Assembly: GCA_000296795.1 (NCBI GenBank)
Contig: BAFH01000004.1
Location: 248,001 to 312,000, forward strand
Origin: Candidatus Jettenia caeni
GTDB lineage: Bacteria > Planctomycetota > Brocadiia > Brocadiales > Brocadiaceae
DNA: 64,000 nt
Reading direction: 5' to 3'
The notes under the pieces are model-generated. The model was not told where the DNA came from. It was given only the letters and a program-made list of their open reading frames with translations, and did not search any database. The position numbers and the translations under genes are program-made. This document shows, one piece after another, positions 29,032 through 48,184 of the stretch (position 1 is its first letter; each line of letters opens with the position of its first letter).

Positions 29032-29213
29032 ACTGGGGAAGGCAGTATAAAACTGCCTTCCCCAGTTTCATTAAAGAAACAATTACCAACCCACAAGACT
29101 ACCAGCCAGTATCTTCTCTTGTCCCTTTAATTTTTTGATCTTAACCTTCATTTCACTCACTCCCTTTCATATATGTAATATCCTTTCGCTAATCTGCCGC
29201 TGGACGCCAGCGG
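29032..29213 (-). repeat. peptide cassette 1 (hairpin + tiny gene + inverted repeat)
   Basis: On the minus strand: an inverted repeat CCGCTGG-CGT-CCAGCGG (29197-29213, perfect), 45 nt to the ATG of the tiny gene, then a hairpin at 29032-29066 with a perfect 15-bp stem (ACTGGGGAAGGCAGT) and a 5-nt loop. No T tract follows, so the hairpin is not a textbook terminator. Confidence 0.85.
29083..29151 (-). CDS. tiny leader-core peptide, copy 1 (22 aa)
   Basis: The peptide is leader MKVKIKKLKGQEK followed by core ILAGSLVGW. The start is fixed by a strong ribosome binding site (GGGAGTGAG) directly upstream. Five of the six copies in the window keep this leader exactly and differ there only at third codon positions, all silent, which shows selection on the peptide. 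The core is variable and ends in Trp immediately before TAA. I read it as a precursor of a ribosomally made, modified peptide; the product is unknown. I do not recognise it as any named family. Confidence 0.75.
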   Translation of the reverse strand: MKVKIKKLKGQEKILAGSLVGW

Positions 29214-30084: not shown

Positions 30085-30258
30085 GGGGTAGCAGTTTTTC
30101 AACTGCTACCCCATGCTCATTAAAGAAACAATTACCACGTCACCACACTACCTTGTGGCTTCTCTTGTCCCTTTAATTTCTTGATCTTAACCTTCATTTT
30201 CCTCACCCCCTTTCAATTATTTAATGCTCTTCTACTAAACACCTCTGGACGCCAGCAG
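30085..30258 (-). repeat. peptide cassette 2
   Basis: Hairpin 30085-30112 (minus: GGGGTAGCAGTT, GAAA loop, AACTGCTACCCC, perfect), tiny gene 30132-30197, and upstream imperfect inverted repeat CTGCTGG-CGT-CCAGAGG (30242-30258). Confidence 0.85.
30132..30197 (-). CDS. tiny leader-core peptide, copy 2 (21 aa)
   Basis: The peptide is leader MKVKIKKLKGQEK followed by core PQGSVVTW. It has the same ribosome binding site pattern (GGGGGTGAGG) and the same TGG-TAA ending as copy 1. The core is one residue shorter and starts with Pro, as in copies 5 and 6. Confidence 0.75.
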   Translation of the reverse strand: MKVKIKKLKGQEKPQGSVVTW

Positions 30259-30303
30259 CCAAATATGGTTTGACTGATTTTTTACTGCTTGTTCCTAAAC
30301 TCC

Positions 30304-30332: not shown

Positions 30333-30367
30333 ATTGTCATACAACGTAATCTAGATAAGGAGATAGT

Positions 30368-30787
30368 ATGCCAACAGTTCAGAAAAGTATAAGGATTCAG
30401 GAAAAAACACTGAAAGAAATTGAACAAATAGCCAGAGATACCGGCAAAGAGTTTTCTGTTGTTGCAAATGAACTGCTTGATGAGGCAGTGAGGATGCAGC
30501 GGTGCCCGGGTATCGTCTTTACCGAAGGCACAACAGGACGAAGGGCCCGGATTGCAGGCACAGGCATTGAGGTCTGGGAGGTTATTGCAACATACAAAGG
30601 TGTTGATGAAAACCTTAATCGCTTGCAAAAGGCTTACCACTGGCTCACAGAACAGCAGTTGAGGTCTGCCATAGGTTACTACAGAACCTATCCTGAAGGG
30701 ATCGACCTTCTTATAAAGCAGAATGCAGGGTTGACTGAAGAGCAGGTTCATAAAAAATACCCATTCCTTATCAGAGAGGACCGTTGA
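30368..30787 (+). CDS. RHH-DUF433 antitoxin
   Basis: The 139-residue protein has an N-terminal ribbon-helix-helix-like segment (VQKSIRIQEKTLKEIEQIARDTGKEFSVVANELLDEAV). A DUF433 domain follows (ARIAGTGIEVWEVIATYKGV ... LRSAIGYYRTYPEGI). It is a DNA-binding antitoxin partner for the DUF5615 gene, whose TTG start overlaps its stop (TTGA). A remnant of a second copy is at 44323-44378. Confidence 0.85.
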   Translation: MPTVQKSIRIQEKTLKEIEQIARDTGKEFSVVANELLDEAVRMQRCPGIVFTEGTTGRRARIAGTGIEVWEVIATYKGVDENLNRLQKAYHWLTEQQLRSAIGYYRTYPEGIDLLIKQNAGLTEEQVHKKYPFLIREDR

Positions 30788-31134
30788 AATATTATCTTGA
30801 TGAAGATCTGAGCCCAAAGATTGCAGAAATACTCAGAAAGCACGGCATAGATGCCGTCAGCGCCCATGAAATCGGCATGGCGCAGACTGAAGATAAAGAA
30901 CATCTTAACCTGGCAGCCTCTGAAAAGAGATGCCTTGTAACACGCAACAGGAACGATTTTATCCGCCTGACCGTTCAATTCTTTCACGAGCATCGTTCTC
31001 ATAGTGGAGTCCTCATAATTCCTCATACCTTACCAAGTGATAATTTCTCACTAATAGCAAGAGCTATTATGAAATATGATTCAAAACACTCTCATGATGT
31101 AAAATCCTATGGTATCGATTTCCTGAAATCTTAA
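30784..31134 (+). CDS. DUF5615 PIN-like toxin
   Basis: The 116-residue protein begins MKYYLDEDLSPKIAEILRKHGID (TTG start overlapping the antitoxin stop) and contains CLVTRNRNDFIRL. The acidic residues D6, E7/D8 and the later ND form the PIN-like site. It is nearly identical to the protein at 44375-44725, so the module was duplicated in the island. Confidence 0.85.
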   Translation: MKYYLDEDLSPKIAEILRKHGIDAVSAHEIGMAQTEDKEHLNLAASEKRCLVTRNRNDFIRLTVQFFHEHRSHSGVLIIPHTLPSDNFSLIARAIMKYDSKHSHDVKSYGIDFLKS

Positions 31135-31361
31135 TCATACGTAGGGTGGATTAAGGCGTTGGTTTTTACGCCGAATCCGCCAATACTGTTTCTTATTGCG
31201 GATTCAGGCTTTACCGTGAACTCAGCCGAACGGTTTATAACCTGAACCCAAAATTTCGCATCTTTCTATTACGCTTCGAATTTGTGAACGATGTCAACCA
31301 ATAACCGTGCAAATATACGGGTTCAATTTACAAAATTGAACCTGCAAGGGAAAATAAAGCA
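31135..31361. repeat. intergenic dispersed repeats
   Basis: Contains the cgtagggtggattaaggcg-type element (31138-31185) and an inverted repeat GGTTCAATTT-ACA-AAATTGAACC (31319-31341). Similar elements flank other toxin modules (40038, 41385, 44725). Confidence 0.5.
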
Positions 31362-32645
31362 CTAACCTTCGTAACTTGATTTAATTTGATCATTCACCAG
31401 AGGGAGAGTTCTCATCCGTATAGCCATCCTTACTCCAAGCCCTGCACCAACAAATAACAAAATTGACATAATTACAAAACTTGCCCTGGTATTGTAAAAT
31501 TTTATTAACACGCCAATACCCAGTACTAATGACAAGGTAAGGATAGAATTTGACCAATCCAGGAAGCTCAGAAATCTGCCCAGAAAATTGTTGTTTACCT
31601 GTCGTTGAATAGAGGTTATGTAAAAAATATGGGTCATTGAGCCTGATAAGCCAACAAGAAAGCTTGCTGGAACCGCCTCAAATAACCCCCCTGCCAGGGC
31701 AAAGAGGAGATAGCCCATTCCCATTCCAACCGGTCCAATCCAGAAAAAAATATTTTCTCCCCAAAAACGGATCAAGGCGACAAGAACGAGTGATCCAACG
31801 ATTGCTCCTGTTCCAAATACTGCATCGATCGTGCCCAGGGCCGATGGGCCTCGTCTTAATACCTCTGACACATAGGGGACTTGTAGAACAGAGAGGAGAT
31901 ATTCCGTCATCTGTGGAAGCAGAAAAATTACGGAAATACCCAAAATCACGGGAGTTACTTTTATATAGTGTATACAGGCAGTAAAATTCTTCCATGTCTC
32001 CACCTTTGCTCTCATAGCTGCTTTTTTGGATGATACAAGGGGGAACCGGAGCATAAAGAAAAGGCATAGGGCGCCAAAAATATATGTGGATGCATCTATG
32101 AGGAGTACCCTTTCAATGGAAAAGTATTCCAGGATAACCCCTGTAAGGCCACTCCCGATAATCCTTCCCGTTTGTACCGAAGAGCCTACAAGGGCATTGG
32201 CTGCGACAAGTCCCTCTTCAGGGACGATTTCTGGTAACAGGCTAACCACGGACAGGTTAAAAAAGACATTGCTAATCGAGATCAGGATACAGAGTGTGAA
32301 TAGTAAAGCTATACCGAGAAGATTTAATTTACAAAAAAGCACACCACACAAGATTATAGCTGCATTCAACAGGATAAGTATTAGGGCGATACGTCTGCGG
32401 TCCCATCGGTCTACTATAGTTCCGGCGAGCGGGGCAAAGAGGATCGTGGGCGCTATTGATACCGCAATTATTCCACTCAGTGATATGGGAGATCCCGTAA
32501 GTTTGAAAATGGACCATAAGACGGTCATTAAAAAGATGTTATTGCCAAAGGTATCGACCAATGCACCGCTAAAATAGAGTGCAAATGCAGGCCTGCGGAG
32601 TACGTCAAGGTATCCAAGGGTTTTTGGTGTATGAGAAGGTTCCAT
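31362..32645 (-). CDS. major facilitator superfamily exporter
   Basis: The 427-residue protein has about 12 membrane helices. The motif GTIVDRWDRRRIALI lies between TM2 and TM3 (MFS motif A variant), and LYFSGALVDTFGNNIFLMTVLWSIFKLTGSP at the start is typical of the EntS/MefA-like drug or siderophore exporter group. The ribosome binding site is AGGAC. It lies on the minus strand between peptide cassettes 3 (upstream) and 2 (downstream), so export of the peptide product is possible but only an inference from position. Confidence 0.85.
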   Translation of the reverse strand: MEPSHTPKTLGYLDVLRRPAFALYFSGALVDTFGNNIFLMTVLWSIFKLTGSPISLSGIIAVSIAPTILFAPLAGTIVDRWDRRRIALILILLNAAIILCGVLFCKLNLLGIALLFTLCILISISNVFFNLSVVSLLPEIVPEEGLVAANALVGSSVQTGRIIGSGLTGVILEYFSIERVLLIDASTYIFGALCLFFMLRFPLVSSKKAAMRAKVETWKNFTACIHYIKVTPVILGISVIFLLPQMTEYLLSVLQVPYVSEVLRRGPSALGTIDAVFGTGAIVGSLVLVALIRFWGENIFFWIGPVGMGMGYLLFALAGGLFEAVPASFLVGLSGSMTHIFYITSIQRQVNNNFLGRFLSFLDWSNSILTLSLVLGIGVLIKFYNTRASFVIMSILLFVGAGLGVRMAIRMRTLPLVNDQIKSSYEG

Positions 32646-32846
32646 AATTAAGTCCTAGTCCAAAAGAGTTGGAAGAAACAAAATCATAATATGGCTGATG
32701 GTTGGATGGTTGATCAATTAACCATATAACCATCTATCCATATAATCATTCAGCCGCATATTTTGCAAAAAATGTAAAAGTTGATACGAAAGAGCAAGGC
32801 ACAAGCAATACAACAAAAATCCAATCAAGTTAGATATTCATTACAT

Positions 32847-33025
32847 GGGGAAAGCCGTTTTTCAACTGCTTTCCCCAGTTTCATTAAAGAAACAATTACC
32901 ACCCCTAAGTACTACCAGCCAGTATCTTCTCGGGTTTCTTTAATTTCTTGATCTTAACCCTCATTTTCCTCATCCCCTTTCATATACGTAATTTTTTTCG
33001 TTAATCTGCCGCTGGACGCCAGCGG
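32847..33025 (-). repeat. peptide cassette 3 (degraded core)
   Basis: Hairpin 32847-32876 (GGGGAAAGCAGTT, GAAA, AACGGCTTTCCCC; one mismatch), tiny gene 32905-32964, perfect inverted repeat CCGCTGG-CGT-CCAGCGG at 33009-33025. Stem bases differ from cassettes 1, 2 and 4 with pairing kept. Confidence 0.8.
32905..32964 (-). CDS. tiny peptide, copy 3, truncated before the Trp (19 aa)
   Basis: The peptide reads leader MRVKIKKLKKPEK, core ILAGST, then TAG; the next codons would be Gly-Trp-TAA (ending at 32896). This is the only copy with replacement changes in the leader (K2R and GQ to KP) and the only one with an early stop, so it is probably decaying. Its core otherwise matches copy 1. Confidence 0.6.
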   Translation of the reverse strand: MRVKIKKLKKPEKILAGST

Positions 33026-33103
33026 CCAAATAGAGTTTAACTGCTTGTTCCTAATCCAAACGAGTTGGAAAAGACAAAATCCGAAGCACAAAGTTTACGA
33101 GTC

Positions 33104-33137
33104 AACCCTGTCAGGGTTTTAAACCCTGACAGGGTTA
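33104..33137. repeat. perfect 16-bp-arm inverted repeat
   Basis: AACCCTGTCAGGGTTT pairs with AAACCCTGACAGGGTT around two bases. This is a dispersed hairpin of the AACCCTGACAGGG kind in an otherwise geneless 33026-33443 stretch. Part of that stretch (33215-33275) resembles the region upstream of cassette 1 (29250-29310). Confidence 0.65.
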
Positions 33138-33443
33138 GTTTTGCGGATATTTTTGTTAAAAAATATCAAAATATTTTTGTAAGCGCCTAAACTTTACCCC
33201 AGCCCACATCTTGTTTCCAAACCCTGTGCTAAACCTATTGAAGCATCTGTTTGAAAACACACTTGCCTGAAATTCCTGTAAAAGTTTATATTTTTTAAGA
33301 TACAACCCCTTTGATCCTCGCAACAGGATACTATATATCCTTATTGACTATTTCCTACCATCAGAGTAAAATTCAAATGATCTTATGAAAAATCATTATG
33401 ACAATATTAAATTTCAATCTGTTAAATTTTAAGGACAACCGTT

Positions 33444-33641
33444 ATGCATAACTCAACCTTATTAAACGAAATCAAATTGATAGAATTAAAGCTACAAGCT
33501 CTTAAAACTCAGGTGAAATCTAAAAAACATAAAGTTAAGACTCATACCTCAGCGGCTCTTTACGGCTTACTAAAAGGAAGCCAGGATATTACGCCCGAAG
33601 ATATAGAAGCCGTTAAGATAAAACTAAAGGAACCTATTTAG
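33444..33641 (+). CDS. VapB-like antitoxin
   Basis: The 65-residue protein (ILxEIKLIELKLQALKTQV-type coiled start; C-terminal YGLLKGSQDITPEDIEAVK) overlaps the PIN toxin start by one base. The C-terminal pattern is also present in the antitoxin at 43309-43524 (LRGILKGVDITDEDV), so these two modules are related. AAGGA precedes the ATG. Confidence 0.78.
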   Translation: MHNSTLLNEIKLIELKLQALKTQVKSKKHKVKTHTSAALYGLLKGSQDITPEDIEAVKIKLKEPI

Positions 33642-34030
33642 TGTATATAGTGACTGATACACACCCATGGGTGTGGTTTCTCACAGCAAGTTCTCGACTA
33701 AGTTCAAAGGCTAAATCAGCATTATCAAACCCTTCCAATATTATTATCATTCCATCAATAGTAACGATGGAAATAAAATACCTTTACCACCGTAAGCGCA
33801 TACCACTATCCTTTGAAGAGGTCTTACAACAAGTCGAAACTGCTGAAAATATCCTTTTCCATCCAATGGATCTTTCGATTGTATCTATTGCACCCACCGG
33901 CTTTGACATCCACGATGCTATCATTATCGGTACAGTAATCCAGTCTGCTGAAGAGTTTGGACAAGTAGTGTCACTTGTTACAGCAGACAGGACAATAACC
34001 GATTCTCATCTTGTTCCAGCAATATGGTAA
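33641..34030 (+). CDS. PIN-domain (VapC-like) toxin
   Basis: The 129-residue protein starts with GTG: YIVTDTHPWVWFLT (first catalytic Asp), then IPSIVTMEIKYLYHRKRI, DIHDAIIIGTVIQ (second acidic pair) and LVTADRTI. It is a full-length putative RNase toxin. Confidence 0.87.
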   Translation: MYIVTDTHPWVWFLTASSRLSSKAKSALSNPSNIIIIPSIVTMEIKYLYHRKRIPLSFEEVLQQVETAENILFHPMDLSIVSIAPTGFDIHDAIIIGTVIQSAEEFGQVVSLVTADRTITDSHLVPAIW

Positions 34031-34262
34031 ATATTTCGGGGCTTCCGGTAAAAATTAACCTGGTAGTTTTGGATACCTAATAAACAACTGGACAAATTCA
34101 AGTCGTGATTAATATAAAATCACTGCACTAACTTTTGTATTGTGTAGAGTAAAACACTGGCGTAGTGGCTACAGGCTGAGGTTTGTCTTCCCCGTTTCTC
34201 TCCGTTTCCTCTGAGAGTGTCACACGATCACAACCATACCCTATTTCCAGCATCTTCTCGTC

Positions 34263-34296
34263 AAACCGTACGTGAGGTTTTCCCTCATACGGCTTT
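34263..34296 (-). ncRNA. group II intron domain V
   Basis: Conserved hairpin AGCCGTATGAGGG-AAAA-CCTCACGTACGGTTT on the minus strand, typical of catalytic domain V. Confidence 0.8.
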
Positions 34297-34326
34297 CCTG
34301 TGCTCTTCACAACAAGGCATATACAC

Positions 34327-34992
34327 CTATCGGCTTGGATTTGCTTTCAGGGGAACATATCGAATTTGGTAGTCATTGAACAGACCCCGTTTCCCATATA
34401 TCTCTTCCCTACTCCACATCTTCCAGCCAAAGCCTTTCAGTTTCTTTCTGCGCATGACAAACCTTCGCACCTTCATCTCCAGGTAATTCCTGACCTTGTT
34501 GAAGGTACTAGTACTATTGCCTATCCTGAAGTAATTTACCCAGCCCCTGACTATTGCATTGACTGTTTGTATCACTTCTCTGAATGGCTTGTTCCAGTTT
34601 GCCTTAAGCGCAGCCTTTACCTTCTTACCGATTTCCTGTCGTTTCTTCTTCCGTGGCGTCTTGCTGACATAGGCCTTGCCTTCACGGTTTCTGGTGAGTC
34701 TAAAGTCAAACCCCAGGAAACTGAAACATCCTCCTTCTTTGAGATTCACTACCTTCGTCTTCTCCCGGTTCATTTGTACCTGCAATGTGTCCAGCTCCTC
34801 TTTGAGTCGCTTCTGAACTTTCTGGAGTAACCAGTTCTCTTTCGGATGTCCGTGTATCAGTATGACCATGTCATCTGCGCTCCGAATATATTCAAGATTG
34901 TAGTATCCATTGCGGCGGGTTACCTCCCGTGCCCGCTCCATCATCTCATCCACTTCGTTGAGGTAAAGGTTCGCCTGCTTTACCTCCGTAGA
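34327..34992 (-). pseudogene. group II intron reverse transcriptase/maturase, 5' part deleted
   Basis: The open frame resumes at NLYLNEVDEMMERAREVTRR, followed by the YADD-equivalent RSADDMVILIHGHP (family members usually have RFADD), FLGFDFRLTRNREGK, and the maturase part PILRGWVNYF-like AIVRGWVNYFRIGNS and GFGWKMWSREE. Everything before RT domain 4/5 is missing; the sequence upstream (from about 34993) is intron RNA-coding DNA, so an internal deletion joined the two. It is non-functional. Confidence 0.8.
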
Positions 34993-35531
34993 AAGATTTA
35001 AGACACAGCAGAGCCCCTTCGCTCCGGTAAAGTTCTGTTGTCCTTGCCATCCTCACTACTACGGACTCATCCGCCACCCTCTTGTCTGTCAGCCCATTTC
35101 GCCGTGGGACTTATAAGGCTTACCTTCGTTCCTGATATTTCTATCAGGGTCAAGGAGGGTTTCCCCAGTTGCTACTGCTCCTTTCTCTCCGTGTCGCCGC
35201 TGATACCCCGCCACCGTTCTTTTCCCTATTAGCCAGTTTAGGTTAGTGAATTCCGCCTTCGCCTAAAATTGACAGGCTCGGCCAGTGGTTCTTAATTTTC
35301 ACGAGGCTACGTCTGCGTTCACTTTCGTTACGACCCGGATATTCGCTCACCGGCCTTACGCCGACTTTGTCAATGGGGCTTCAGAAGGCAACGTTTCCAT
35401 CGCCCCCTGCCATCCAAGCTACATGGCTCCGGCTTTTACCATGACGGGACTTTCACCCGTTAGAAAGCAGTACCCTTCTCTGGGCACGCCATTTTGAAAG
35501 TTTAACCCCTCTAAGTTGTTATTCATAAATA

Positions 35532-35705
35532 GGGTTAGCAGTTTTTCAACTGCTAACCCCCTTATTAAAGAAACAATTACCACATACAACCACTACCAGC
35601 CTGTATCTTCTCTTGCCCCTTTAACTTTTTGATCTTGACCTTCATTTCACTCACCCTCTTTCGTAAATAATATTCCTCCACTAATCTGCCGCTGGACGCC
35701 AGCAG
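35532..35705 (-). repeat. peptide cassette 4
   Basis: Hairpin 35532-35559 (GGGTTAGCAGTT, GAAA, AACTGCTAACCC, perfect), tiny gene 35577-35645, and inverted repeat CTGCTGG-CGT-CCAGCGG (35689-35705; one G-U wobble in RNA). The hairpin's TTA/TAA pair replaces the GTA/TAC of cassettes 2, 5 and 6. Confidence 0.85.
35577..35645 (-). CDS. tiny leader-core peptide, copy 4 (22 aa), downstream of the radical SAM gene
   Basis: The peptide is leader MKVKIKKLKGQEK and core IQAGSGCMW. It has three silent changes relative to copy 1 in the leader (GTC, AAG and GGG) and no replacement. It lies 269 nt downstream of the radical SAM-RRE gene on the same strand, the closest physical link between a copy and a possible modifying enzyme. 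It is the only core with Cys. Confidence 0.78.
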   Translation of the reverse strand: MKVKIKKLKGQEKIQAGSGCMW

Positions 35706-35769
35706 CCAAATATGGTTTAACCGCTTGTTTCCAGACTCTGTTTGGAAACGAGCAGAATAAACACACCCC

Positions 35770-35835
35770 TTGCCCCTCTCAAGAGGGGAATTTGAAAAGT
35801 CCCCTCTTGGGAGGGGATTGAGGGGTGGGTAAAAG
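35770..35835. repeat. CCCCTCTTGGGAGGGG-type inverted repeat
   Basis: Contains GCCCCTCTCAAGAGGGG and CCCCTCTTGGGAGGGG arms followed by aggggtgggt. The same element occurs at 61243-61310. It is a dispersed palindromic repeat between the radical SAM gene and peptide copy 4. Confidence 0.65.
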
Positions 35836-35914
35836 TGCCCATAATACATCCCCGGCCCCTCCCGGTATCGAGTACGGGACAAGCCTTTTTAGAGGTGAGA
35901 TAAAAGTCTTATTT

Positions 35915-38083
35915 TCATACAAATTCAATAATTTTAAGCCCCAACGCCTCTTTGAAAAAATCACTACATACCTGCTGCGATTCGTCCATTGAAATGTTGA
36001 ATATATTACTTGCCTGTTCGATGATAGAACGAATCGTGGTTTTGCCATCACTCGAAGCAAGCAGAAAGGCGGCATCTTTCTCCATCTGCCACCTTTCACC
36101 GGTTTCTATATTGTACACAAGAAGCACCTCTTGTGGCGTAAGTGGATCGGTTATAGCCTCCTTATTGGACGCATTGGGCGCTTTATCCCGTGCTTGTTGC
36201 TGCTCATCAATGAAATCATAATTGTAATGAATCGTCCCGTAAAGGATCCATGAAGGCACCTTCGGCCTCCATTCCAAGAATTCCCCTTCAATTGCTGGCT
36301 CCTCTTCTTCTTTCGATACCGCATCAGTAAAACCTGCTCCGTAATGCTCCATATAGAGATAACGATGGGTAGGAATTAAGAAATGTGATGGGAAGTACTT
36401 TTTCAACTCAGAAGCAATGTCCTGGGATACCTGTTGTATCTCATCTGGCGACATCCCGCTTGAGGTCGTATAGTCAAGATAATACGCTAACATCCCCTCA
36501 TCCGGGTAATTGAGCGTAGTAATGCCATAGTGAGCAGGATTCTTTGCCATATCGGATTGCCGGAAGAGAATAAACGGGGTGTAACTAAAATCCTCAATCT
36601 GCTTATGATGCCGGATAAGGAAATCCCGCGTCTCATGGGCTTCTTGTTCTGTTTCTGTAGGTAATCCCACAATGGTCAGGAGGCGTGCCTTTATGCCTGC
36701 TTGAACACAATTCTCTAACACCTTTTCGATGGTCTCACGTTTTGTGCCCTTCTTCACGAGGTTCAGTAATCGTTCCGAAAAACTCTCCAGGCCAAACCAT
36801 ATCGCTATACACCCTGCCTGCCGTAATTTCCTGAGCAGTTCTACCGTAAAACCCGACTCAAACCGGGCACGACACGTCCATCTAATATTGAGCTTTCGGT
36901 CTAGAATACCCTGTGCAAATTGTGATAAATAGGAAGGGGAAAGAATCTGGTCACGGAAGCGGAAGAACCGTGCCTGTGTCTGGGTTTGTATAGACGCCAG
37001 GTCATCAAGCACATTATTCACCTTCCGGCAACGGTAGCTGCGGCGCGGGGCGCCAATGGAACAGAAAGAACAATGCCCCCAATAGCAACTCCGGGAGATC
37101 AAATAGTCAATAACCCTTTCTGGAAAGAAATATTTTTCAAGAGGAAAATCCTTATAACTCGGTGCCGGTAATGCCTGGATATCTTCTGGCTCGCAAATGG
37201 GGTTCACGTGCATCTTCCCATTATTCCAGTATGCCAGATTAGGTACATCATCGAGGTTCTTTCCTGAGGCAAGAACCTCTGCAAGCCTCGTAAAAGGACG
37301 CTCGCATTCATACACAATTATGCTATCTATCAGGGAAAAAAGTGGTGAGGCATCCCCTGTCTCTAAACAGTCCAGGATGTGGGTAAAGCTGAATTGGTCT
37401 TCCAGACACCCAAAGACGGTAATATGTGCCTTTGACCCTTCTTTCTTCAATACATGGGCAAGGGTAAGGGCAGGGATTATCTGGTCCGGGTGTGTCACAT
37501 TGAGGCCTATGAGATCAAATTCTTTTTCAAGAATATCAGGCAGCCACCGGGAGTAAAGAATGCTGAGGAACGGATGTTCCTTCGTTGCCTGGATCGCTTG
37601 TAAAACTTGCCGGAAAGAACGCTCATCGTACTGCATTTGGTAGTTAAAGAGCGTAATACGTGTTGGTGCAAAGGCTGTGGAGATCAGTGTACAGGCCTGT
37701 TCTAAAACCTGACGCGCATGCCAGTAGGAGCGATAATTATAGAAACACGCGGGGTCGCGCATAACGTTCTTCGCCCGGTTGACCTCTTCTACGACATATT
37801 TGCCCGTAATGGCAACCGGGGTCAGGGCATGGTATCGGGCCTGTTCCTGTTGCGAAAGATGATTCTTTGCATCTAAAGATTGCCACTCTTGCAACAAGCG
37901 ATGGTAAATATTCTTGAGCCAGTCATCATCTAAAATAAGGTCGAACATTTCGATACTGAGATCCCGTACGTAAGGTTCAATGCCTTTCGTACGCAGATAA
38001 GCCGCCAGGTAAGCCACCTCTGCCGGTGTATTCGGATAATACCATACAGGGGGAAAAAGTAGTGCCGTTTGAAACGAATTCAT
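35915..38083 (-). CDS. radical SAM RiPP-maturase-like protein with C-terminal PqqD/RRE domain
   Basis: The 722-residue protein has an N-terminal Rossmann region of the B12-binding type (about 1-270; ALLFPPVWYYPNTPAEVAYLAAYLR, DLIGLNVTHPDQIIPALTLA). No DxHxxG cobalamin ligand motif is seen. The radical SAM core has CYWGHCSFC (CX3CX2C-like, about residue 329), FRFRDQILSPSYL and CIAIWFGLESFSERLL. The C-terminus (about 640-722; LLVYNIETGERWQMEKDAAFLLASSDGKTTI, IIEQASNIFNISMDES) has the PqqD-like RRE pattern that binds peptide leaders. This domain set is typical of RiPP-modifying enzymes. It is preceded by GGAAGG and followed on the same strand by peptide copy 4. The substrate link is inferred. 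Confidence 0.82.
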   Translation of the reverse strand: MNSFQTALLFPPVWYYPNTPAEVAYLAAYLRTKGIEPYVRDLSIEMFDLILDDDWLKNIYHRLLQEWQSLDAKNHLSQQEQARYHALTPVAITGKYVVEEVNRAKNVMRDPACFYNYRSYWHARQVLEQACTLISTAFAPTRITLFNYQMQYDERSFRQVLQAIQATKEHPFLSILYSRWLPDILEKEFDLIGLNVTHPDQIIPALTLAHVLKKEGSKAHITVFGCLEDQFSFTHILDCLETGDASPLFSLIDSIIVYECERPFTRLAEVLASGKNLDDVPNLAYWNNGKMHVNPICEPEDIQALPAPSYKDFPLEKYFFPERVIDYLISRSCYWGHCSFCSIGAPRRSYRCRKVNNVLDDLASIQTQTQARFFRFRDQILSPSYLSQFAQGILDRKLNIRWTCRARFESGFTVELLRKLRQAGCIAIWFGLESFSERLLNLVKKGTKRETIEKVLENCVQAGIKARLLTIVGLPTETEQEAHETRDFLIRHHKQIEDFSYTPFILFRQSDMAKNPAHYGITTLNYPDEGMLAYYLDYTTSSGMSPDEIQQVSQDIASELKKYFPSHFLIPTHRYLYMEHYGAGFTDAVSKEEEEPAIEGEFLEWRPKVPSWILYGTIHYNYDFIDEQQQARDKAPNASNKEAITDPLTPQEVLLVYNIETGERWQMEKDAAFLLASSDGKTTIRSIIEQASNIFNISMDESQQVCSDFFKEALGLKIIEFV

Positions 38084-38243
38084 AAATATAGTTTCCTTCC
38101 AAATTGATTGAGATGCAATGATAAATACATTGACAAATTATTTACCTTACGTTATTGTATTATTGTAAGGAGATCAGTATGGCGTATAGTATTAAATAGC
38201 GTGTATCATTATTATAAACGAATTAAATAACCATATATCCAAA

Positions 38244-38311
38244 TGTCATTGCGAGAGCAATAGCCCGAAGCAATCCCGGAGGTTTAGATTGTTTCGCTTC
38301 TCTCGCAATGA
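38244..38311. repeat. TCATTGCGAGAG dispersed inverted repeat
   Basis: gtCATTGCGAGAG ... GAAGCAATC ... GATTGTTTCGCTTC ... CTCTCGCAATGac forms a long imperfect palindrome of the common intergenic kind. Just before it (38166-38202) an RBS plus ATGGCGTATAGTATTAAATAG suggests the 5' stub of another toxin-antitoxin operon. Confidence 0.65.
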
Positions 38312-38353
38312 CAACTTACTTTTGACGTTTACTATAATGCGTGGAGAATACGT

Positions 38354-38587
38354 ATGAAATCTAAAATTACCTCAAAATTCCAAGTTACCATTCCGAGAGA
38401 AATCCGAGAGAAACTTCATTTAAGTGTTTCAGATTCAATCGAATGGAAAATTGAAGAAAACAGAATATTCGTTGAACCTGCCGATAAACCATTTCTTAAG
38501 TATAAAGGATCCATTAAAGTCGAAGCCGGCAATATCAAAGAGGATATCCTGGAGGCTAGAAAAATGTGGATATTGAAGAACAAATGA
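38354..38587 (+). CDS. AbrB/MazE-type antitoxin
   Basis: The 77-residue swapped-hairpin AbrB protein reads MKSKITSKFQVTIPREIREKLHLSVSDSIEWKIEENRIFVEP. This is the DNA-binding antitoxin of the PIN toxin that follows with an ATGA overlap. Confidence 0.88.
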   Translation: MKSKITSKFQVTIPREIREKLHLSVSDSIEWKIEENRIFVEPADKPFLKYKGSIKVEAGNIKEDILEARKMWILKNK

Positions 38588-38997
38588 ACTCCTTTCTTAT
38601 AGATACCAATTGCCTGATTTCGTATACCACAACCAGAAGCAAGACTCAAACTGAAAAGATCTCCGGATATATAGAAGATGCATCAAACTTTCAGGCTGAG
38701 ATAATCATAATTTCAAACACCATTACCGAATTCGTTTACACTTTGCAATCTATTTACAAAGTTGATTCATTATTCATAAACCACATGCTTCTCGATCTGT
38801 TTAAAAATCCAGGGATAAAACATCAACAAGGGTATTTTATAAGCACTATTTTATCCTTGTGGCCCGATACAATAAAAGATTATGGGGATGCAGTGTTAGC
38901 CGCTGCTGCATCCGAACTCAAAATTCCCATATTAACATTCGATAAACCCTTTTCTAAACAGCTATCGCTTATAAACATTCCACACAAACTCTTGTGA
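38584..38997 (+). CDS. PIN-domain toxin
   Basis: The 137-residue protein starts at MNSFLIDTNCLISYTT, whose ATG overlaps the antitoxin TGA (ATGA). Catalytic acids are seen in LIDTNCL, SNTITEFVYTL, DYGDAVLAAAA and TFDKPF. It is an intact VapC-like RNase toxin. Confidence 0.86.
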   Translation: MNSFLIDTNCLISYTTTRSKTQTEKISGYIEDASNFQAEIIIISNTITEFVYTLQSIYKVDSLFINHMLLDLFKNPGIKHQQGYFISTILSLWPDTIKDYGDAVLAAAASELKIPILTFDKPFSKQLSLINIPHKLL

Positions 38998-39090
38998 TAA
39001 TTTTCAGGATTTGTGAAATTTTTAAAAATATTACCGCGCCTACGCCAACCCTATCTTGAATAATTTACCCGTCATCCTGATATTCATTAT

Positions 39091-39187
39091 CAGAGGACTC
39101 TCTATATAACAACCTTTAATAAAGGTGATGTAATATGAATACCTTTCCCCTTTACTGATTTGAATTGTCAGTAATACCAATTTATAA
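39091..39187 (+). pseudogene. internal-deletion remnant of the PemK module at 29426-29969
   Basis: Bases 39091-39160 match the toxin start region (antitoxin tail, AATAAAGGTGATGTAATAT, CCTTTCCCCTTTACTGAT). They jump directly to bases matching the toxin end (GTCAGTAATACCAAT), so about 0.3 kb of the middle is missing. Confidence 0.75.
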
Positions 39188-39220
39188 CCTCAATCCAGCG
39201 ACAATTTTAAATTTATTACC

Positions 39221-39303
39221 TTGAAACACACATCTTTAAATGGCACTATCGATATACTCCATAAGATTGAAACTATTGAGAAAGAAATTGTTGATTTAAA
39301 ATT
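39221..39303 (+). pseudogene. remnant of the antitoxin at 43309-43524
   Basis: The frame reads LNGTIDILHKIETIEKEIVD then LKL, matching residues 5-28 of the downstream antitoxin nearly base for base, then diverges. Confidence 0.7.
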
Positions 39304-39434
39304 ATGCAATAGTTTCTCCTTTTCCCTTTATCACTCTGCGTTCTCAGCGCCCTCGACGGTAAACTGATACAAAATTAAAATTGAAAACCTTTGTATACAT
39401 GATATACTTGTAGACAAATATATGGAGGATTATT

Positions 39435-39701
39435 ATGAAAACGACAACTCTAAGAGTGCTTAAGACAACACAGGCAAGACTTAAAAAAATTTCCACGGCT
39501 GAACATATCAGCATTATGGAATTAGTTGACAAACTTGTGGATGAGCATGAAAGGTCTTTTTGGAAAGGATTTGAAGAGGACTCTATATCTTTTCTCGATA
39601 AGGAAGATATAAAAACACGGAAGACCTTTGAAAATGCATTAGGAGACGGTATTGGCATACGAAAAACCCTTTCCAAAAAGAGGAGAAATCTGGCTCGTTG
39701 A
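39435..39701 (+). CDS. antitoxin of a MazF module
   Basis: The 88-residue protein (MKTTTLRVLKTTQARLKKISTAEHISIMELVDKLVDEHE) has a ribbon-helix-helix-like start and an acidic middle. It overlaps the broken toxin at 39652. GGAGG precedes the ATG. A second, truncated copy is at 43939. Confidence 0.72.
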   Translation: MKTTTLRVLKTTQARLKKISTAEHISIMELVDKLVDEHERSFWKGFEEDSISFLDKEDIKTRKTFENALGDGIGIRKTLSKKRRNLAR

Positions 39702-40010
39702 TTTCAGCCCATCTATCGGTTTAGAAATACAAGACCTGCATCCCGCCCTTGTTGTTTCCGTTGATGAACTCAACAAGAGTACATGGGGATTGATTGTTGT
39801 TTGCCCTATTACAACTTTCAGAAAGAATAAACCCTTTCGGCTCCACGTCCCTCATATCACCTCCTGAAGGTGGTATTCGTCAAACTTCCATATACGAGCG
39901 ACCAGGTGAAATCTCTTTCTATCCAATGGTTTTCAGAACGATGGGGAGCAGTAAATGCAGATGTTCTGAAGAACGTGGATTTTATACTGAAAAAGGTATT
40001 GGGACTTTAA
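39652..40010 (+). pseudogene. MazF-like toxin with two frameshifts
   Basis: Frame 1 reads AYEKPFPKRGEIWLVDFSPS then ALVVSVDELN and PITTF up to HIT. Frame 2 continues SPPEGGIRQTSIYERPG. Frame 3 completes QVKSLSIQWFSERWGAVNA then VLKNVDFILKKVLGL. The three pieces make one MazF-length protein, so the gene is inactivated by two indels near 39865 and 39900, or there are sequencing errors. Confidence 0.78.
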
Positions 40011-40222
40011 ACAAATCATTCGAAAATAGCTGTGTAGAATGGGTGAAGCGACAGCGCACCTATCAAATAATGACTAAATAGAACGAATACCAAGACCCAT
40101 GTGTCCCTTTAATTGCGCTTGATTCCCTGAATAATTAGTCATAAAATATGATTATTACCCTTTTGATTTTTGCAATTCTACTGGTACTTCTGCACTTACG
40201 ATACTTTAGCAAGGGAAATAAT

Positions 40223-40450
40223 ATGTCTAAAATCATTGAAGCTATCTATGAAAATGGGGTATTAAAACCCACGAAAGTCCTTAAATTAGGAGAACATCAA
40301 GTTGTTAAAATCGCTATTGTTTCTCCTGAAGCACATAGGAAACAAAAGATTCCTCCGGCTGTGAAAAAAATAATCCGTCACCTCAAAAGTACTCTTCCTA
40401 CGCGTACGTCTAAGGAACTTATCAAAGATACTCAGATAGATGTTGACTAA
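40223..40450 (+). CDS. DUF104-type antitoxin
   Basis: The 75-residue protein begins MSKIIEAIYENGVLKPTKVLKLGEHQ, the classic DUF104 start. It overlaps the PIN gene by 11 nt. The upstream in-frame extension to 40148 is hydrophobic and not part of the family. Confidence 0.8.
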   Translation: MSKIIEAIYENGVLKPTKVLKLGEHQVVKIAIVSPEAHRKQKIPPAVKKIIRHLKSTLPTRTSKELIKDTQIDVD

Positions 40451-40918
40451 TTTCATATTCATTGATACCAACATCTGGTATTATGCTTACGTAATTCCCA
40501 AAAGACTGGAATTCGTAAAGATTCATAATCGGGCGGTTCAGTTCCTAACTGAAAAACTAGAAGATGCCAACCTTATCATAGCAATAACTACTCACCAAAT
40601 TGCCGAAATCCTTGATGTATTACGCAAAAGCAACCTTTCCGTTAATATAAGAAAAGATATCCTGGAGAGTTTTAAAACCCCTAAGTTCCATATAGTAAAT
40701 CTTACAATAGAGTTAATCGAAGCCTCTTTCTATAAAAGCCTTTCCTCGGATATTCACATCTATGATTATTTATGTGCTTACCTCTGGCAGATATTGTTAC
40801 AGAAATTTTTTCTGCTGATGACCACTTCCAACATGAACACTTCAAGGCTATTGCCAGAGTAACCAACCCACTTGCCCCATGGATATTGAGGGAGGGAAAT
40901 ATCCCGAAAAAAGCATAA
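40440..40918 (+). pseudogene. PIN-domain toxin with one frameshift
   Basis: The first frame gives FIFIDTNIWYYAYVIPKR ... DIHIYDYLCAYL to 40862. A second frame from about 40780 continues LPLADIVTEIFSADDHFQHE then HFKAIARVTNPLAPW to 40918. Together they form a normal PIN protein; a single-base change near 40780 breaks it. Confidence 0.75.
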
Positions 40919-41133
40919 CCGAATCTCCTTTTGCTGGTTCAAGAACTTCGGGTATATAAAAAAAATTGAGTTTTGTCTCTTAACCTTATCTACTTGGAAA
41001 AACAGTTCTATGGCTAAATGGTTATATGGTCAATTGATCAGCCATACGATCATTCAATTGTGCAATCTCCCCAACCATGGACCAAATTTTGATTTTATCT
41101 TTTCAACTAGTTCAGTTAAATCTTCATTAAATA

Positions 41134-41326
41134 GGGGTAGCAGTTTTTCAACTGCTACCCCTTATTAAAGAAACAATCAATTACCAACCCTTGAGCGTCC
41201 ATTCTGGCTTCTCTTGTCCCTTTAATTTCTTGATTTTAACCTTCATTTCACTCACCCCCTTTCATATATGTAAAATGTCCTTCAGCAAATAAGATTGCTG
41301 CTGATCTGTCGCTGGACGCCCAGTGA
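41134..41326 (-). repeat. peptide cassette 5
   Basis: Hairpin 41134-41161 (GGGGTAGCAGTT, GAAA, AACTGCTACCCC, perfect), tiny gene 41181-41246, and a diverged inverted repeat TCACTGG-GCGT-CCAGCGA (41309-41326). About 35 bp beyond the hairpin (from 41099) is nearly identical to the same flank of cassette 6. Confidence 0.82.
41181..41246 (-). CDS. tiny leader-core peptide, copy 5 (21 aa)
   Basis: The peptide is leader MKVKIKKLKGQEK and core PEWTLKGW, with one silent change in the leader (AAA for K4). The strong site GGGGGTGAG precedes it. Confidence 0.75.
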   Translation of the reverse strand: MKVKIKKLKGQEKPEWTLKGW

Positions 41327-41481
41327 TCAATTAGAGCATTACTTTGTTAAAAAATGCTTGTAAAAAATACTTTTAAGCCATGTAGGATGGGTGAAGCGAC
41401 AACGCACCCATCAAATAATAACATTCAACGGGATCGATGGGTCCGCTCCGCTTGACCCATCCTACACAACTCATTTAATAC

Positions 41482-41510
41482 TTGACAAAGATTTCATGTA
41501 CTTTAATAAT
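41482..41510 (+). promoter_or_regulatory. promoter overlapping the antitoxin start
   Basis: TTGACA (41482-41487), a 17-bp spacer and AATAAT (41505-41510). Transcription would begin near 41517, where an in-frame ATG lies, suggesting a leaderless or very short-leader message. Confidence 0.55.
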
Positions 41511-41804
41511 ATGCTTATGAATATCTTTCATAAAACATATAGGTTCAAAGGAAAAGTCCTTCCCGATGGACATCTCTCCATTCCGGATGAATTAGCAACA
41601 TCTGCCGTTGGTAAAGAATTTGAAGTAGTAATGACCTCCATAGACGATATTCAACATTCTGTATCTCTTTATCTCGATGGAAAGCTTAAGAAAAAAGGTA
41701 AACTAAAAGATCTGATACTAGATTCAGCAAGCATTGAGGAAGCTGTTAAAACCACCTTTGGTTCAACAGATATCAGCAACGTAATAGAAATTGTTCGAAA
41801 ATGA
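41496..41804 (+). CDS. antitoxin of a PIN module
   Basis: The protein has about 102 residues; the recognisable part starts at YRFKGKVLPDGHLSIPDELA, an antitoxin pattern seen with PIN toxins. The promoter at 41482-41510 overlaps the first ATG, so the true start may be ATG 41511 or 41517. Its TGA overlaps the toxin ATG. Confidence 0.72.
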   Translation: MYFNNMLMNIFHKTYRFKGKVLPDGHLSIPDELATSAVGKEFEVVMTSIDDIQHSVSLYLDGKLKKKGKLKDLILDSASIEEAVKTTFGSTDISNVIEIVRK

Positions 41805-42250
41805 CTATCGATATGATTGCACTTGATACGGATGTTCTTGCCATTTATCATATCTTCCATAATGACCAAAGGTATAATGCCACGAGAGGATTTTTCGACA
41901 AGATTGGCGATCAAATCAAGGCCATTACCATCTTCAATCTTCTTGAATTGTGCGGAATACTTACCACTGCTATAAGAAAAGAAGACTCCATGACGCTCTT
42001 TCATAAGTACCTCACAGCCGAAGATACACAAATACTCTTTCCACGTTTCACAGCAAACGAAGAAAAGGACTTCTGGGCCACGCTCGTTTCGGAATGTCTG
42101 TCCAGAATACAGAGAGGACTCCGACTCGGCGACTCCGTCATTTTATGGACGTTAGAGACAAACAACATAGATACAATCATTACATGGAACACCAAACACT
42201 TTACCGGAAAGACGTCTGTCAAAGTTTTAACCCCTTCAGAATTCCTATAA
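41801..42250 (+). CDS. PIN-domain toxin
   Basis: The 149-residue protein (IALDTDVLAIYHIFHN, ITIFNLLELCGIL, LGDSVILWTLE, IITWNTKHF) is a full-length VapC-like RNase. C-terminal remnants of near-identical genes are at 44155-44242 and, more diverged, 49041-49174. Confidence 0.85.
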   Translation: MTIDMIALDTDVLAIYHIFHNDQRYNATRGFFDKIGDQIKAITIFNLLELCGILTTAIRKEDSMTLFHKYLTAEDTQILFPRFTANEEKDFWATLVSECLSRIQRGLRLGDSVILWTLETNNIDTIITWNTKHFTGKTSVKVLTPSEFL

Positions 42251-42318
42251 CTTTCGTTCAGCTCCGCTTGTCCTATCCTTCTTGCCTATTTTCCGGTTGG
42301 CACTGCCCACCCTACTAG

Positions 42319-43194
42319 AGCGTGTTATGCACTTTGAAATATCACCTTAGCAAATCTTCTGAGCATGAGTATGGCAAAAGCAAGGAAATGAAGACCAGTC
42401 CAGCGCTTCAGGCATTCGCTCATAATCCCTTACGAGTCTTCTGAACCTGCTCTTCCAGGCAAAGGATCTCTCAACGACCCATCTTCTGGGGAGAAGTACA
42501 AATCCTTTCTTTGCCTGAGGGAGCTTCACCACCTGAAGCTCTATTCCATGCTCTTTGGCATCCTCTTTTGCCTGATCACCTGTATAGCCTTGATCCACAA
42601 AGGCTATCAAGGCGGATTCTCCCGTTACTTCCTGAATCTCTTGACAAAGCTTCTTCACCTGAGCTCGTTCCTGCTCATGGGCAGGAGTTACCTGCAAAGC
42701 CAGAAGATGTCCGAGAGTATCGACAGCCATATGGATCTTGCTTCCTTTCTTCTTCTTCTTGTGTCCATCATATCCGGCTCTTCCTCCACTCTCAGGGGTA
42801 GACTGAATAGTCTGGCTATCGATAATCGCCGCAGAAGGCTCCTTTTTCCTTCCTTCAGCCAGCCGCAAGATCTCTCGAAGATCACGAACAATGGCCTCAA
42901 AGACTCCAGCTCTTATCCATCTCATAGCTTGCTGGTAGATGGTATACCAGGAAGGAAGATCATGGGGGATCATCCTCCAGGTGGTTCCCCCTCTGACCAT
43001 CCATCTCAGCCCATTGAAGACTTCTCTCAAAAAATGCTCTCTTTGAGGAGCTTCCTCTTTCATCAAGGCCAGGCAAGGGGCGACAAATGCCCATTCAGCA
43101 TCAGTGACATCACTTGGGTATGGTTTTCTTTTGTTTTTATTTGGTTCCATACCCAAATTATAACAGTTTTATCCACAAAAGCGCATAACACGCT
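42319..43194 (-). mobile_element. IS5-family insertion sequence with CTAG target duplication
   Basis: The 876-bp element has ends AGCGTGTTATGC / GCATAACACGCT (inverted) and flanking CTAG duplications at 42315-42318 and 43195-43198. The transposase is inside on the minus strand. YTAR target duplications are typical of the IS5 group. Confidence 0.88.
42347..43156 (-). CDS. IS5-family transposase, C-terminus frameshifted
   Basis: The DDE transposase has PYPSDVTDAEWAFVAP, EVFNGLRWMVRGGTTWRMIPHDLP, IIDSQTIQST (first Asp), DGHKKKKKGSKIH, FVDQGYTG (second Asp) and LPRRWVVERSFAW (Glu). After EALDW the frame departs; the expected tail (TGLHFLAFAILMLRRFAKV) is present in the next frame down to about 42326. 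So either one base is wrong or the copy is defective. Confidence 0.85.
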   Translation of the reverse strand: MGMEPNKNKRKPYPSDVTDAEWAFVAPCLALMKEEAPQREHFLREVFNGLRWMVRGGTTWRMIPHDLPSWYTIYQQAMRWIRAGVFEAIVRDLREILRLAEGRKKEPSAAIIDSQTIQSTPESGGRAGYDGHKKKKKGSKIHMAVDTLGHLLALQVTPAHEQERAQVKKLCQEIQEVTGESALIAFVDQGYTGDQAKEDAKEHGIELQVVKLPQAKKGFVLLPRRWVVERSFAWKSRFRRLVRDYERMPEALDWSSFPCFCHTHAQKIC

Positions 43195-43223
43195 CTAGGC
43201 TTAATAAATATCTCAGTAATATC

Positions 43224-43252
43224 TTGACAAAGAGCAGTATTTACATTAAAAC
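43224..43252 (+). promoter_or_regulatory. promoter of the 43309 module
   Basis: TTGACA (43224-43229), 17 bp, TAAAAC (43247-43252), 56 nt before the antitoxin ATG. Confidence 0.5.
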
Positions 43253-43308
43253 TAACCTCACACAAAGATTAATATTTAATAAATATTCTTAAAAAAGGAA
43301 CAACTCCC

Positions 43309-44863: not shown

Positions 44864-46174
44864 TTAGGTGATATTTAAAGAATACTCGATACCATCATGG
44901 TTGCTATCTGTTGCTAATTCATGGATTTCTGTGGCCATAACCAACCATTCAATCGCGCAGGCCATCGTCGGCGACATGCGTTTTTTATCAAGTGATCTAC
45001 TCACACCTACCAATACAGCCGCAAAGTCCTGATATGTAAGACCATACCCAATTAGCAAGTCTGGATATGCATGTGATAGCATACCATCACCGAGGACTGA
45101 TACAAGCTTTTCTGTTACCCTGCGTCCCAAGACATTCTCTAATAACGCAGAAGCTGACATAAACTTGTGATGAAACCTTTCGTTCTTATCAAAATTGAAT
45201 TTTGACAACACGGAGGAACATTTGGCAGACAACGCTTCAAAAGAGGCTGACGAAACGAGTAATGGCATCGCTTCTCTATCATAATCCATCTTATGCTTCA
45301 TAAGTTCGCTGGATAAAAGTGCGGCAACAATATTAGCATGATAAATACCATAGAAAATTCCACTAGATGTGAGTTCTGAAGCACTAAGCTCTCTATCTGG
45401 TACAAAACCATTAACATCCCAAGTCAAAAATAGCGCACTCAGCCCAATGTAAAAGATGGGTGTATACGGCATTCGACAATAGAACGCTGTCAATAGAAAC
45501 TCACCTAAGAGGTCAAAGTCAAATCGTAATAGACTCCACATAATTCCAGATTCTATTGTCTCCCAAATATCATTCGGGACAGTCGTTAGTGGCAATGGAT
45601 GGCAGCCAAAATCCGTGGTGTAGAATACGGAATGCGTAAAAGCGTAACCATCATCAGCATTCATCATCAGCGGAGAAGACTTGCGATGTAATAAGCTATC
45701 ATCTGGAATATTAAGTGGAATATTTACCCCTAGGATTTGAGAACTCCATTTGACTTCAAGCAATTGAAATGGACTTCTTTCGGATGAATCTAAGAATAGT
45801 TTCCTCCATGCGGCGCGTGCTATGTTATCAAATTTAGTGTTATGTCTTCCAAGCTTATTTAGCAATGCTGTACCCATACACAGCATAAAAGCGCGCGACG
45901 GTTTCCAAAGCAACCCTTGAATTATTGCATTCGACCTAAGGCGCTGCTCGATTAGATTCAGAAGGCTTTGAATTACGGTATTAGACTCAACGGAGAAATA
46001 CCCATGTCGATTTAGCCCCCAGAATAGCAGAGCGATTTCGCAAGCCGCCTTGTCAGCCCGCGCATCCCCAGCTGTAGCCTTTTGGATGTTACTTGCGCCA
46101 TTGTGCAGTAGCCGTATAGTGCTGTGCATCCTAGACTGCAAGGCTTGCCTTGATATTAACTCAGAAAAGTTCAT
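44864..46174 (-). CDS. unknown 436-residue protein next to a candidate precursor (possibly DUF6895-like)
   Basis: The protein is mostly helical, with no signal peptide. It contains YAFTHSVFYTTDFGCHPLPL near the middle, a segment I associate tentatively with DUF6895, a family of unknown function. It lies 111 nt downstream of the 82-residue small gene at 46286, with a good AGGGAGA site, and the pair looks like a two-gene unit. No catalytic motif was recognised. Confidence 0.6.
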   Translation of the reverse strand: MNFSELISRQALQSRMHSTIRLLHNGASNIQKATAGDARADKAACEIALLFWGLNRHGYFSVESNTVIQSLLNLIEQRLRSNAIIQGLLWKPSRAFMLCMGTALLNKLGRHNTKFDNIARAAWRKLFLDSSERSPFQLLEVKWSSQILGVNIPLNIPDDSLLHRKSSPLMMNADDGYAFTHSVFYTTDFGCHPLPLTTVPNDIWETIESGIMWSLLRFDFDLLGEFLLTAFYCRMPYTPIFYIGLSALFLTWDVNGFVPDRELSASELTSSGIFYGIYHANIVAALLSSELMKHKMDYDREAMPLLVSSASFEALSAKCSSVLSKFNFDKNERFHHKFMSASALLENVLGRRVTEKLVSVLGDGMLSHAYPDLLIGYGLTYQDFAAVLVGVSRSLDKKRMSPTMACAIEWLVMATEIHELATDSNHDGIEYSLNIT

Positions 46175-46665: not shown

Positions 46666-46842
46666 GGGGGTAGCAGTTTTTCAACTGCTACCCCCAGTTT
46701 CATTAAAGAAACAATTACCAGAAAGTCCACGACCATTCTGGCTTCTCTTGTCCCTTTAATTTCTTGATCTTAACCTTCATTTCACTCACCCCCTTTCATA
46801 AATATAATGTCCTTCCGCTAATCTGCCGCTGGACGCCAGCAG
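46666..46842 (-). repeat. peptide cassette 6
   Basis: Hairpin 46666-46695 (GGGGGTAGCAGTT, GAAA, AACTGCTACCCCC, perfect 13 bp), tiny gene 46715-46780, inverted repeat CTGCTGG-CGT-CCAGCGG (46826-46842; one G-U pair). Confidence 0.85.
46715..46780 (-). CDS. tiny leader-core peptide, copy 6 (21 aa)
   Basis: The peptide is leader MKVKIKKLKGQEK and core PEWSWTFW. Three of the eight core residues are Trp, and PEW is shared with copy 5. The strong site GGGGGTGAG precedes the ATG. Confidence 0.77.
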   Translation of the reverse strand: MKVKIKKLKGQEKPEWSWTFW

Positions 46843-47143: not shown

Positions 47144-48184
47144 TTAATAAACTTCAGCCATTTTAGTCTCATTCAGATAATACGCCCTCGCAAATGCAAC
47201 CTTTCGATTAAATTCAAAATCATTTGCTAAATTGGTAAGAAACTCCACAATTTTATTATTAGACATAAGCTTATAACAAGCATCACAAATTCCATTCTTT
47301 ATGTATCTTTCGGGGAGATATTCTCTTAATCCTGCTTCTTTGATTATAGAAATTAACTTTTTTGGACCCCATATTCTTATTGCATGTAAGATTGGATTCG
47401 ATTCTGCCTCTTCGAAGATTTCATTTATTGAATTTTTCCTTAAATTTCCTAATAGTAGAGGATGTGAAGATTGCAAATCAATTAGCGGTCCTATACAAGC
47501 TATTACTTTTCCATCAGGAAAGATTATAGGTGAACCAGCAGCTATACAAGCTGAAACAGGCGGGTCTTCTGACATTTCATATGTTGGAGTATAAAGCTTC
47601 TTTGAAGCTCTCCCTACTAAAAAAGTACAAACTGTATTAATATTGTCCTTTTCTGTAATTTTCTGTAATTTATTTAATATCTCTTTATACTCTCTATCAT
47701 CTTTATTTTCCGTACATACAGTTATATTGTAAGGTATGTTACACTCGGTTGCAGCTAGAACGGCATTTTTCACTCTTTCAAAAGGTATAAATTTTTGATG
47801 ATATACATCCGTACTGATAGCAATCATTTTAATTTCAGGAACTTCTCGAAGTATCTTACTTGCTTTTTCTCTTGTAGTTGCCCAAAAGGCATTGGTTACA
47901 GCCGTAATTACCAAACCACAATCTTCCGCAAAATTGGCGATCCTTTTCAATTTACCAATATCATAAAAAGGTTCACCACCAGTTAGTGAAAGTGCTGTGA
48001 TATACCCATTCCTATAATTAGCTAATTGTTGGATCCAATCAAATGCATCGTTAATTAATAACTCTTCTTTTCTGTCAGGACTAGCCTCAATTATGCAATG
48101 AGGACACATAACCTGGCATTTATATGTTAGAATACATCCAATATTTTTTAGAAAAGATGTCCATCCTGATCCATCAAGTGACAT
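47144..48184 (-). CDS. radical SAM protein (peptide-modifying type, substrate unknown)
   Basis: The 346-residue protein has the [4Fe-4S]-SAM motif CQVMCPHC (Cys 23, 27, 30), ALSLTGGEPFYD (GGE motif) and AISTDVYHQKF. C-terminal cysteines follow in VSACIAAGSPIIFPDGKVIACIGP and NGICDACYKL, which look like a SPASM/twitch-type auxiliary cluster. GGAGGAG precedes the ATG. It is downstream of the 79-residue gene and the Cys-rich protein gene on the same strand, suggesting it modifies one of them. Confidence 0.83.
   Translation of the reverse strand: MSLDGSGWTSFLKNIGCILTYKCQVMCPHCIIEASPDRKEELLINDAFDWIQQLANYRNGYITALSLTGGEPFYDIGKLKRIANFAEDCGLVITAVTNAFWATTREKASKILREVPEIKMIAISTDVYHQKFIPFERVKNAVLAATECNIPYNITVCTENKDDREYKEILNKLQKITEKDNINTVCTFLVGRASKKLYTPTYEMSEDPPVSACIAAGSPIIFPDGKVIACIGPLIDLQSSHPLLLGNLRKNSINEIFEEAESNPILHAIRIWGPKKLISIIKEAGLREYLPERYIKNGICDACYKLMSNNKIVEFLTNLANDFEFNRKVAFARAYYLNETKMAEVY

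Follow-up and report, generated by a model that had tools for sequence, protein, structure and literature searches.

Organization of the locus

The window, that is, the whole analyzed stretch of 64,000 nucleotides from the Candidatus Jettenia caeni genome, carries on its minus strand between 54 and 29 kb an island of RiPP-type genes, with plus-strand toxin-antitoxin modules in between. From 54 to 46 kb the island consists of genes for an S8 peptidase, a PatG C-terminal-type protein, a papain-type peptidase, two peptides with an F-I-A-E-x-S-L-Y-K leader, a YydG/EpeE-like radical SAM protein and a short peptide (copy 6). Past copy 6 follow an 82-residue Trp-rich ORF, a DUF6895 protein, peptide copy 5, the B12 enzyme that is the subject of this analysis, copies 4 and 3, an MFS transporter, and copies 2 and 1. 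The features discussed below are:

29083..29151 (-), peptide copy 1, MKVKIKKLKGQEKILAGSLVGW
30132..30197 (-), peptide copy 2, MKVKIKKLKGQEKPQGSVVTW
31362..32645 (-), MFS transporter between copies 2 and 3, a possible exporter
32896..32964 (-), peptide copy 3, decayed, MRVKIKKLKKPEKILAGST-stop-GW
35577..35645 (-), peptide copy 4, MKVKIKKLKGQEKIQAGSGCMW
35915..38083 (-), 722-residue cobalamin-type radical SAM protein with a C-terminal PqqD-like RRE (from the ORF, Pfam and AlphaFold)
41181..41246 (-), peptide copy 5, MKVKIKKLKGQEKPEWTLKGW
44864..46174 (-), DUF6895 protein between copies 5 and 6
46666..46695 (-), terminator-like hairpin 3' of copy 6; the other copies have it too, with compensating changes
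46715..46780 (-), peptide copy 6, MKVKIKKLKGQEKPEWSWTFW
47144..48184 (-), radical SAM/SPASM-like protein, a rival or partner of the 722-residue protein; best NCBIfam match TIGR04078 (YydG epimerase), 96 bits against a cut-off of 300

No RiPP-type modifying enzyme other than the 722-residue protein was recognised between copies 1 and 5. The genes at 44864-48184 (minus strand), namely the YydG/EpeE-like gene, copy 6, the 82-residue Trp-rich ORF (WDIWCGNGWILRKWPG) and the DUF6895 gene, make up another RiPP-like module. At 48584-54067 (minus strand), two peptides with related starts (MKIPGFIAEASLYKT and MKMPEFIAEVSLYKM) accompany the papain-type, PatG-type and S8 peptidase genes, possibly as a third peptide system. 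Plus-strand toxin-antitoxin genes (MazF/PemK, PIN, MazE) are found at 29607-43921 among the minus-strand cassettes, most of which adjoin these or other genes. A group II intron with a maturase ORF (34144-35462, minus strand; Rfam D1-D4 and catalytic matches) begins just beyond the terminator-like hairpin of copy 4, and Rfam had no matches in this stretch other than the intron.

Peptide cassettes with a constant leader and a variable core

The six cassettes, at 29.1, 30.2, 32.9, 35.6, 41.2 and 46.7 kb, occupy one 18-kb stretch, all on the strand of the 722-residue protein (minus), and no further ones were found in the rest of the 4.09-Mb genome. Five of the six are intact, each a peptide of 21-22 residues, while copy 3 is dead, having an in-frame TAG and the leader changes K2R, G10K and Q11P. 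Each peptide consists of a basic 13-residue leader (MKVKIKKLKGQEK; charge +5), in which hydrophobic residues alternate, and a core of 8-9 residues. A degenerate leader pattern had six matches in the genome and its reversed control none; judged by this search, the common leader is far beyond chance.

The mean pairwise DNA identity among the cassettes is 91% in the leader, 74% in the 3' UTR, 66% in the 5' UTR, 48% in the core and about 30% in the outer flanks. In the alignment of the five intact copies we saw five leader differences, all five of them synonymous transitions; since only 13 of the 39 possible leader transitions are synonymous, the probability of this outcome by chance is approximately 0.004. 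At the level of the aligned sequences this shows purifying selection on the leader. The cores, in turn, vary in length by whole codons with an invariant terminal Trp and stop, this Trp being the sole residue common to all of them. The ORFs have a strong Shine-Dalgarno-like sequence, and every cassette has its own conserved 5' UTR with a hairpin and a terminator-like 3' hairpin. The constant leader and variable core match the pattern of RiPP precursors, and the synonymous changes and the ribosome-binding site suggest that the ORFs are translated.

A search of 62 genomes of the order gave no intact cassette outside this genome. Strong BLAST matches to the cassette, with the best 10 candidates per genome scored, occurred only at the six copies and at one decayed cassette in a genome of another genus (G020, C1:2449335, L047). 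On the same matches, the 5' hairpin was rejected as a genome-wide repeat. The relic in G020, which has no ortholog of the 722-residue protein, has TAG in place of the last Trp codon (TGG), its upstream part is not homologous, and it adjoins a transposase gene. When the degenerate leader pattern was run against 85,000 species genomes and viral contigs, it returned just unrelated genes or chance micro-ORFs, and a TBLASTN search of plasmids gave no match to the cassette peptides.

The hairpin and the terminator-like element that flank each ORF, the dispersal of the cassettes amid toxin-antitoxin genes and the transposase gene next to the G020 relic could also suggest that the ORFs of 21-22 codons belong to a regulatory or mobile repeat, made up of hairpin, leader peptide and terminator, and are not precursors. 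We consider this improbable, as the leader is more conserved than the UTRs and changes only synonymously, the core varies by whole codons with Trp and stop fixed, and the Shine-Dalgarno-like sequence is strong.

Domain structure and fold of the 722-residue enzyme

The enzyme ORF (722 codons with an ATG start, 35915-38083, minus strand) is laid out as a B12-type domain (residues ~3-300), a radical SAM domain (323-593) and an RRE (~605-722). The Radical_SAM domain scores above the Pfam cut-off (E 9e-14, 52.4 bits versus 29.5). Its cluster motif CYWGHCSFC (residues 333-341) is CX4CX2C and not the canonical CX3CX2C, and it is the same in 45 of 45 homologs. As the Cx4Cx2C variant has been described for GenD1 (PMC4340712), the motif is a variant in spacing and does not exclude the protein from the radical SAM superfamily. 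By Pfam, the PqqD match is weak (E 0.0016; 19.2 bits, below the gathering cut-off of 23.4), and so is the B12-binding domain of the enzyme itself (E 0.11, below the cut-off); the latter domain was matched in 42 of the 45 homologs.

The AlphaFold model, built from the alignment of the 45 homologs, has a mean pLDDT of 91.5. In structure comparison, residues 2-593 align with OxsB, AprD4, TsrM and MgmA (Z 22-24, sequence identity 16-20%), all of which leave the C-terminal domain uncovered. TsrM methylates Trp. The last 123 residues, folded separately (pLDDT 86), resemble a leader-bound lasso RRE (6jx3; Z 12.7, 1.8 A over 85 residues), TbiB1 (Z 12.5) and PqqD (5sxy; Z 11.0) at about 10% identity; unlike PqqD and TbiB1, this RRE is fused to an enzyme. 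The C-terminal domain is thus, according to the model, a winged-helix RRE fold, weak by sequence and firm by structure, and the N-terminal part is, by its predicted fold and by its homologs, of the cobalamin-binding type, the cofactor itself being a prediction. The net charge of the RRE is -7. The initial annotation had read the protein as a B12-like N-terminal domain, the CYWGHCSFC motif and a C-terminal PqqD-like domain, and had placed copy 4 downstream on the same strand; the fold comparisons (Z 22-24 for the core and 11.0-12.7 for the RRE) agree with the former, and copy 4 does lie exactly 269 nt past the enzyme stop.

The best NCBIfam matches of the enzyme were rSAM_ocin_1 (TIGR03975; 96.6 bits, against a cut-off of 281.85) and ApyD (NF050148; 88.2 bits), both scores being far under the cut-offs. 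These two families and PbsB of a biphenomycin-like pathway (PMC12257519) share with it the cobalamin-type radical SAM core and a RiPP role, whereas the CX4CX2C motif and the RRE fused at the C-terminus set it apart; the RRE of the pbs pathway is a protein of its own that partners the MNIO (PMC12257519). An argG-linked homolog that is conserved in the order (the copy in this genome is at C3:341816) is 32% identical to residues 6-581, but has 584 residues, no RRE and no recognised adjacent peptide.

No ortholog of the enzyme was found in the other genomes searched (best identity 35%). It is a lone long branch in a tree of 55 homologs, with weak support (82/34), and for this reason we claim no orthology. 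Searches of viral contigs gave no match and those of plasmids only distant homologs, the best-covered of which is 26% identical. Enzyme and intact peptides co-occur in this genome only among the 62 genomes of the order, and the literature searched held no description of this enzyme-cassette system.

Homologs with an RRE and an adjacent peptide in other Planctomycetota

The RRE-bearing homologs of other Planctomycetota are about 30% identical to the enzyme with the same layout, and mostly have directly 3', on the same strand, an ORF of 55-67 residues ending in [ED]D[VI]ADK. A profile of this ADK-tail peptide, built from twelve peptides already found beside enzyme genes, matched in 16 of 392 genomes of the phylum (loci L131, L132, L134-L138, L140, L141, L144 and others), and in all 16 the peptide shares contig and strand with an enzyme match, which lies 84-1298 nt upstream of it. 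The unbiased part of this survey consists of four further genomes (G232, G295, G388 and G404) not represented in the alignment used as query; they showed the same arrangement, and no ADK-tail peptide was found away from an enzyme. This supports the reading of a B12 radical SAM-RRE gene with a peptide directly 3' as the layout of a maturase-substrate pair, and copy 4 occupies the same 3' same-strand position relative to the 722-residue enzyme. The peptides themselves differ: the ADK-tail peptide is present in one copy, ends in EDVADK or EDIADK and has no sequence in common with the cassette peptides, and the profile search found no match to it in the Candidatus Jettenia caeni genome.

None of the ADK-tail peptides tested against Pfam and NCBIfam matched a model. 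With its B12 radical SAM-RRE gene, this peptide looks like an undescribed RiPP-type pair, a by-product of the present analysis that would provide a second testable RiPP-type family. The charge of the RRE was dropped as a general predictor of the leader charge, many RREs of the ADK group being acidic too.

Candidate maturases of the cassette peptides

Given the architecture and fold of the enzyme, the conservation of the leader, the adjacency of copy 4 and the precedent in the family, we estimate a probability of about 60% that the 722-residue enzyme acts in trans to modify the peptides of the cassettes. It is a credible candidate for the maker of a family of small modified peptides, but not the sole candidate at the locus. 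The initial annotation had called it the candidate maturase; the layout and the family precedent with the peptide 3' agree with its being a candidate, while the definite article is too strong, since copy 6 has a second radical SAM gene (47144-48184) on its 5' side, arranged as the enzyme is to copy 4, and the DUF6895 gene lies between copies 5 and 6. The adjacency of copy 4 is weak evidence alone, because each cassette brings its own UTR and hairpin and most lie among toxin-antitoxin genes. Its position beside the enzyme may be incidental, and the YydG-like gene beside copy 6 has a standing equal to that of the enzyme beside copy 4.

The cassette peptides could be matured chiefly by the YydG/EpeE-like protein through epimerization, with or without the DUF6895 protein, leaving the B12 enzyme a secondary or unrelated role. 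The YydG/EpeE-like gene lies about 360 nt 5' of copy 6 and shares its strand, its product has YydG-type similarity, and DUF6895 has been linked with peptide epimerization, one member being reported as a lasso-peptide epimerase in the title of a reference. Neither the YydG-like nor the DUF6895 gene was found in 116 relatives; the former is, like the cassette peptides, restricted to this genome. We nevertheless regard this as unlikely: the YydG/EpeE-like gene adjoins candidate precursors of its own, the Trp-rich ORF of 82 residues (46289-46534) and one of 79 residues (48267-48506), Pfam and NCBIfam recognised no RRE in its product, and the score of 96 bits is far under the YydG cut-off of 300.

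We give a similarly low weight to the B12 enzyme being a RiPP maturase for some other substrate, such as the 82-residue ORF, the two FIAE-type peptides (48584 and 51518) or one encoded elsewhere, with copy 4 adjacent by chance. The island does hold more peptide-like ORFs, the cassettes are self-contained units, and the genome has two discrete PqqD-like RREs elsewhere. However, those ORFs are 8-16 kb away beside enzymes of their own, the candidate substrates of the homologs are directly 3' of the enzyme, and the ADK-tail peptide was not found in this genome. The discrete RREs are at G000:C3:513879 (L150) and G000:C4:905475 (L151); one of them is accompanied by an HprK-like protein and a radical SAM/SPASM-like protein.

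Proposed maturation of the cassette peptides

For the preferred reading, modification of the cassette peptides by the 722-residue enzyme, we propose the following course of leader binding, chemistry and export. The protein would act as a RiPP maturase of the cobalamin-dependent radical SAM type that itself carries a leader-binding domain. This domain, the acidic RRE at the C-terminus, would most likely dock the basic 13-residue leader as an added strand and present the core of 8-9 residues to the radical SAM/cobalamin active site. There a carbon-centred change would be made at the invariant C-terminal Trp or close to it, most likely a C-methylation and possibly a cross-link. Any particular chemistry is less probable than the modification as such. 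One enzyme could serve all intact copies in trans, because the five have one common leader. The leader might be trimmed by the papain-type and S8 peptidases of the island, and the product exported by the MFS protein.

Rather more tentatively, the system may represent a new RiPP class, in which solo cassettes of 21-22 residues with one basic 13-residue leader and fast-changing, Trp-ended cores lie amid toxin-antitoxin genes and are modified in trans by one fused CX4CX2C B12-radical-SAM-RRE enzyme. If the enzyme does modify these peptides, their leader and core would be among the shortest that a B12 radical SAM enzyme acts on, and the copies would offer natural core variants for substrate-scope work.

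Other arrangements of B12 radical SAM-RRE genes were also seen. In two relatives of the same family (L054, 12885-7607, and L055, 5354-10795), such a gene follows two more radical SAM-like ORFs and is also preceded by a gene for a 116-residue repeat protein (repeats such as AGTIEDVAKKYKAA). At L052 (8028-10761) and L053 (7748-10481), it is preceded by an ORF of 158 residues with an Asn-rich stretch ending in AVYWPDQFAEIEPV.
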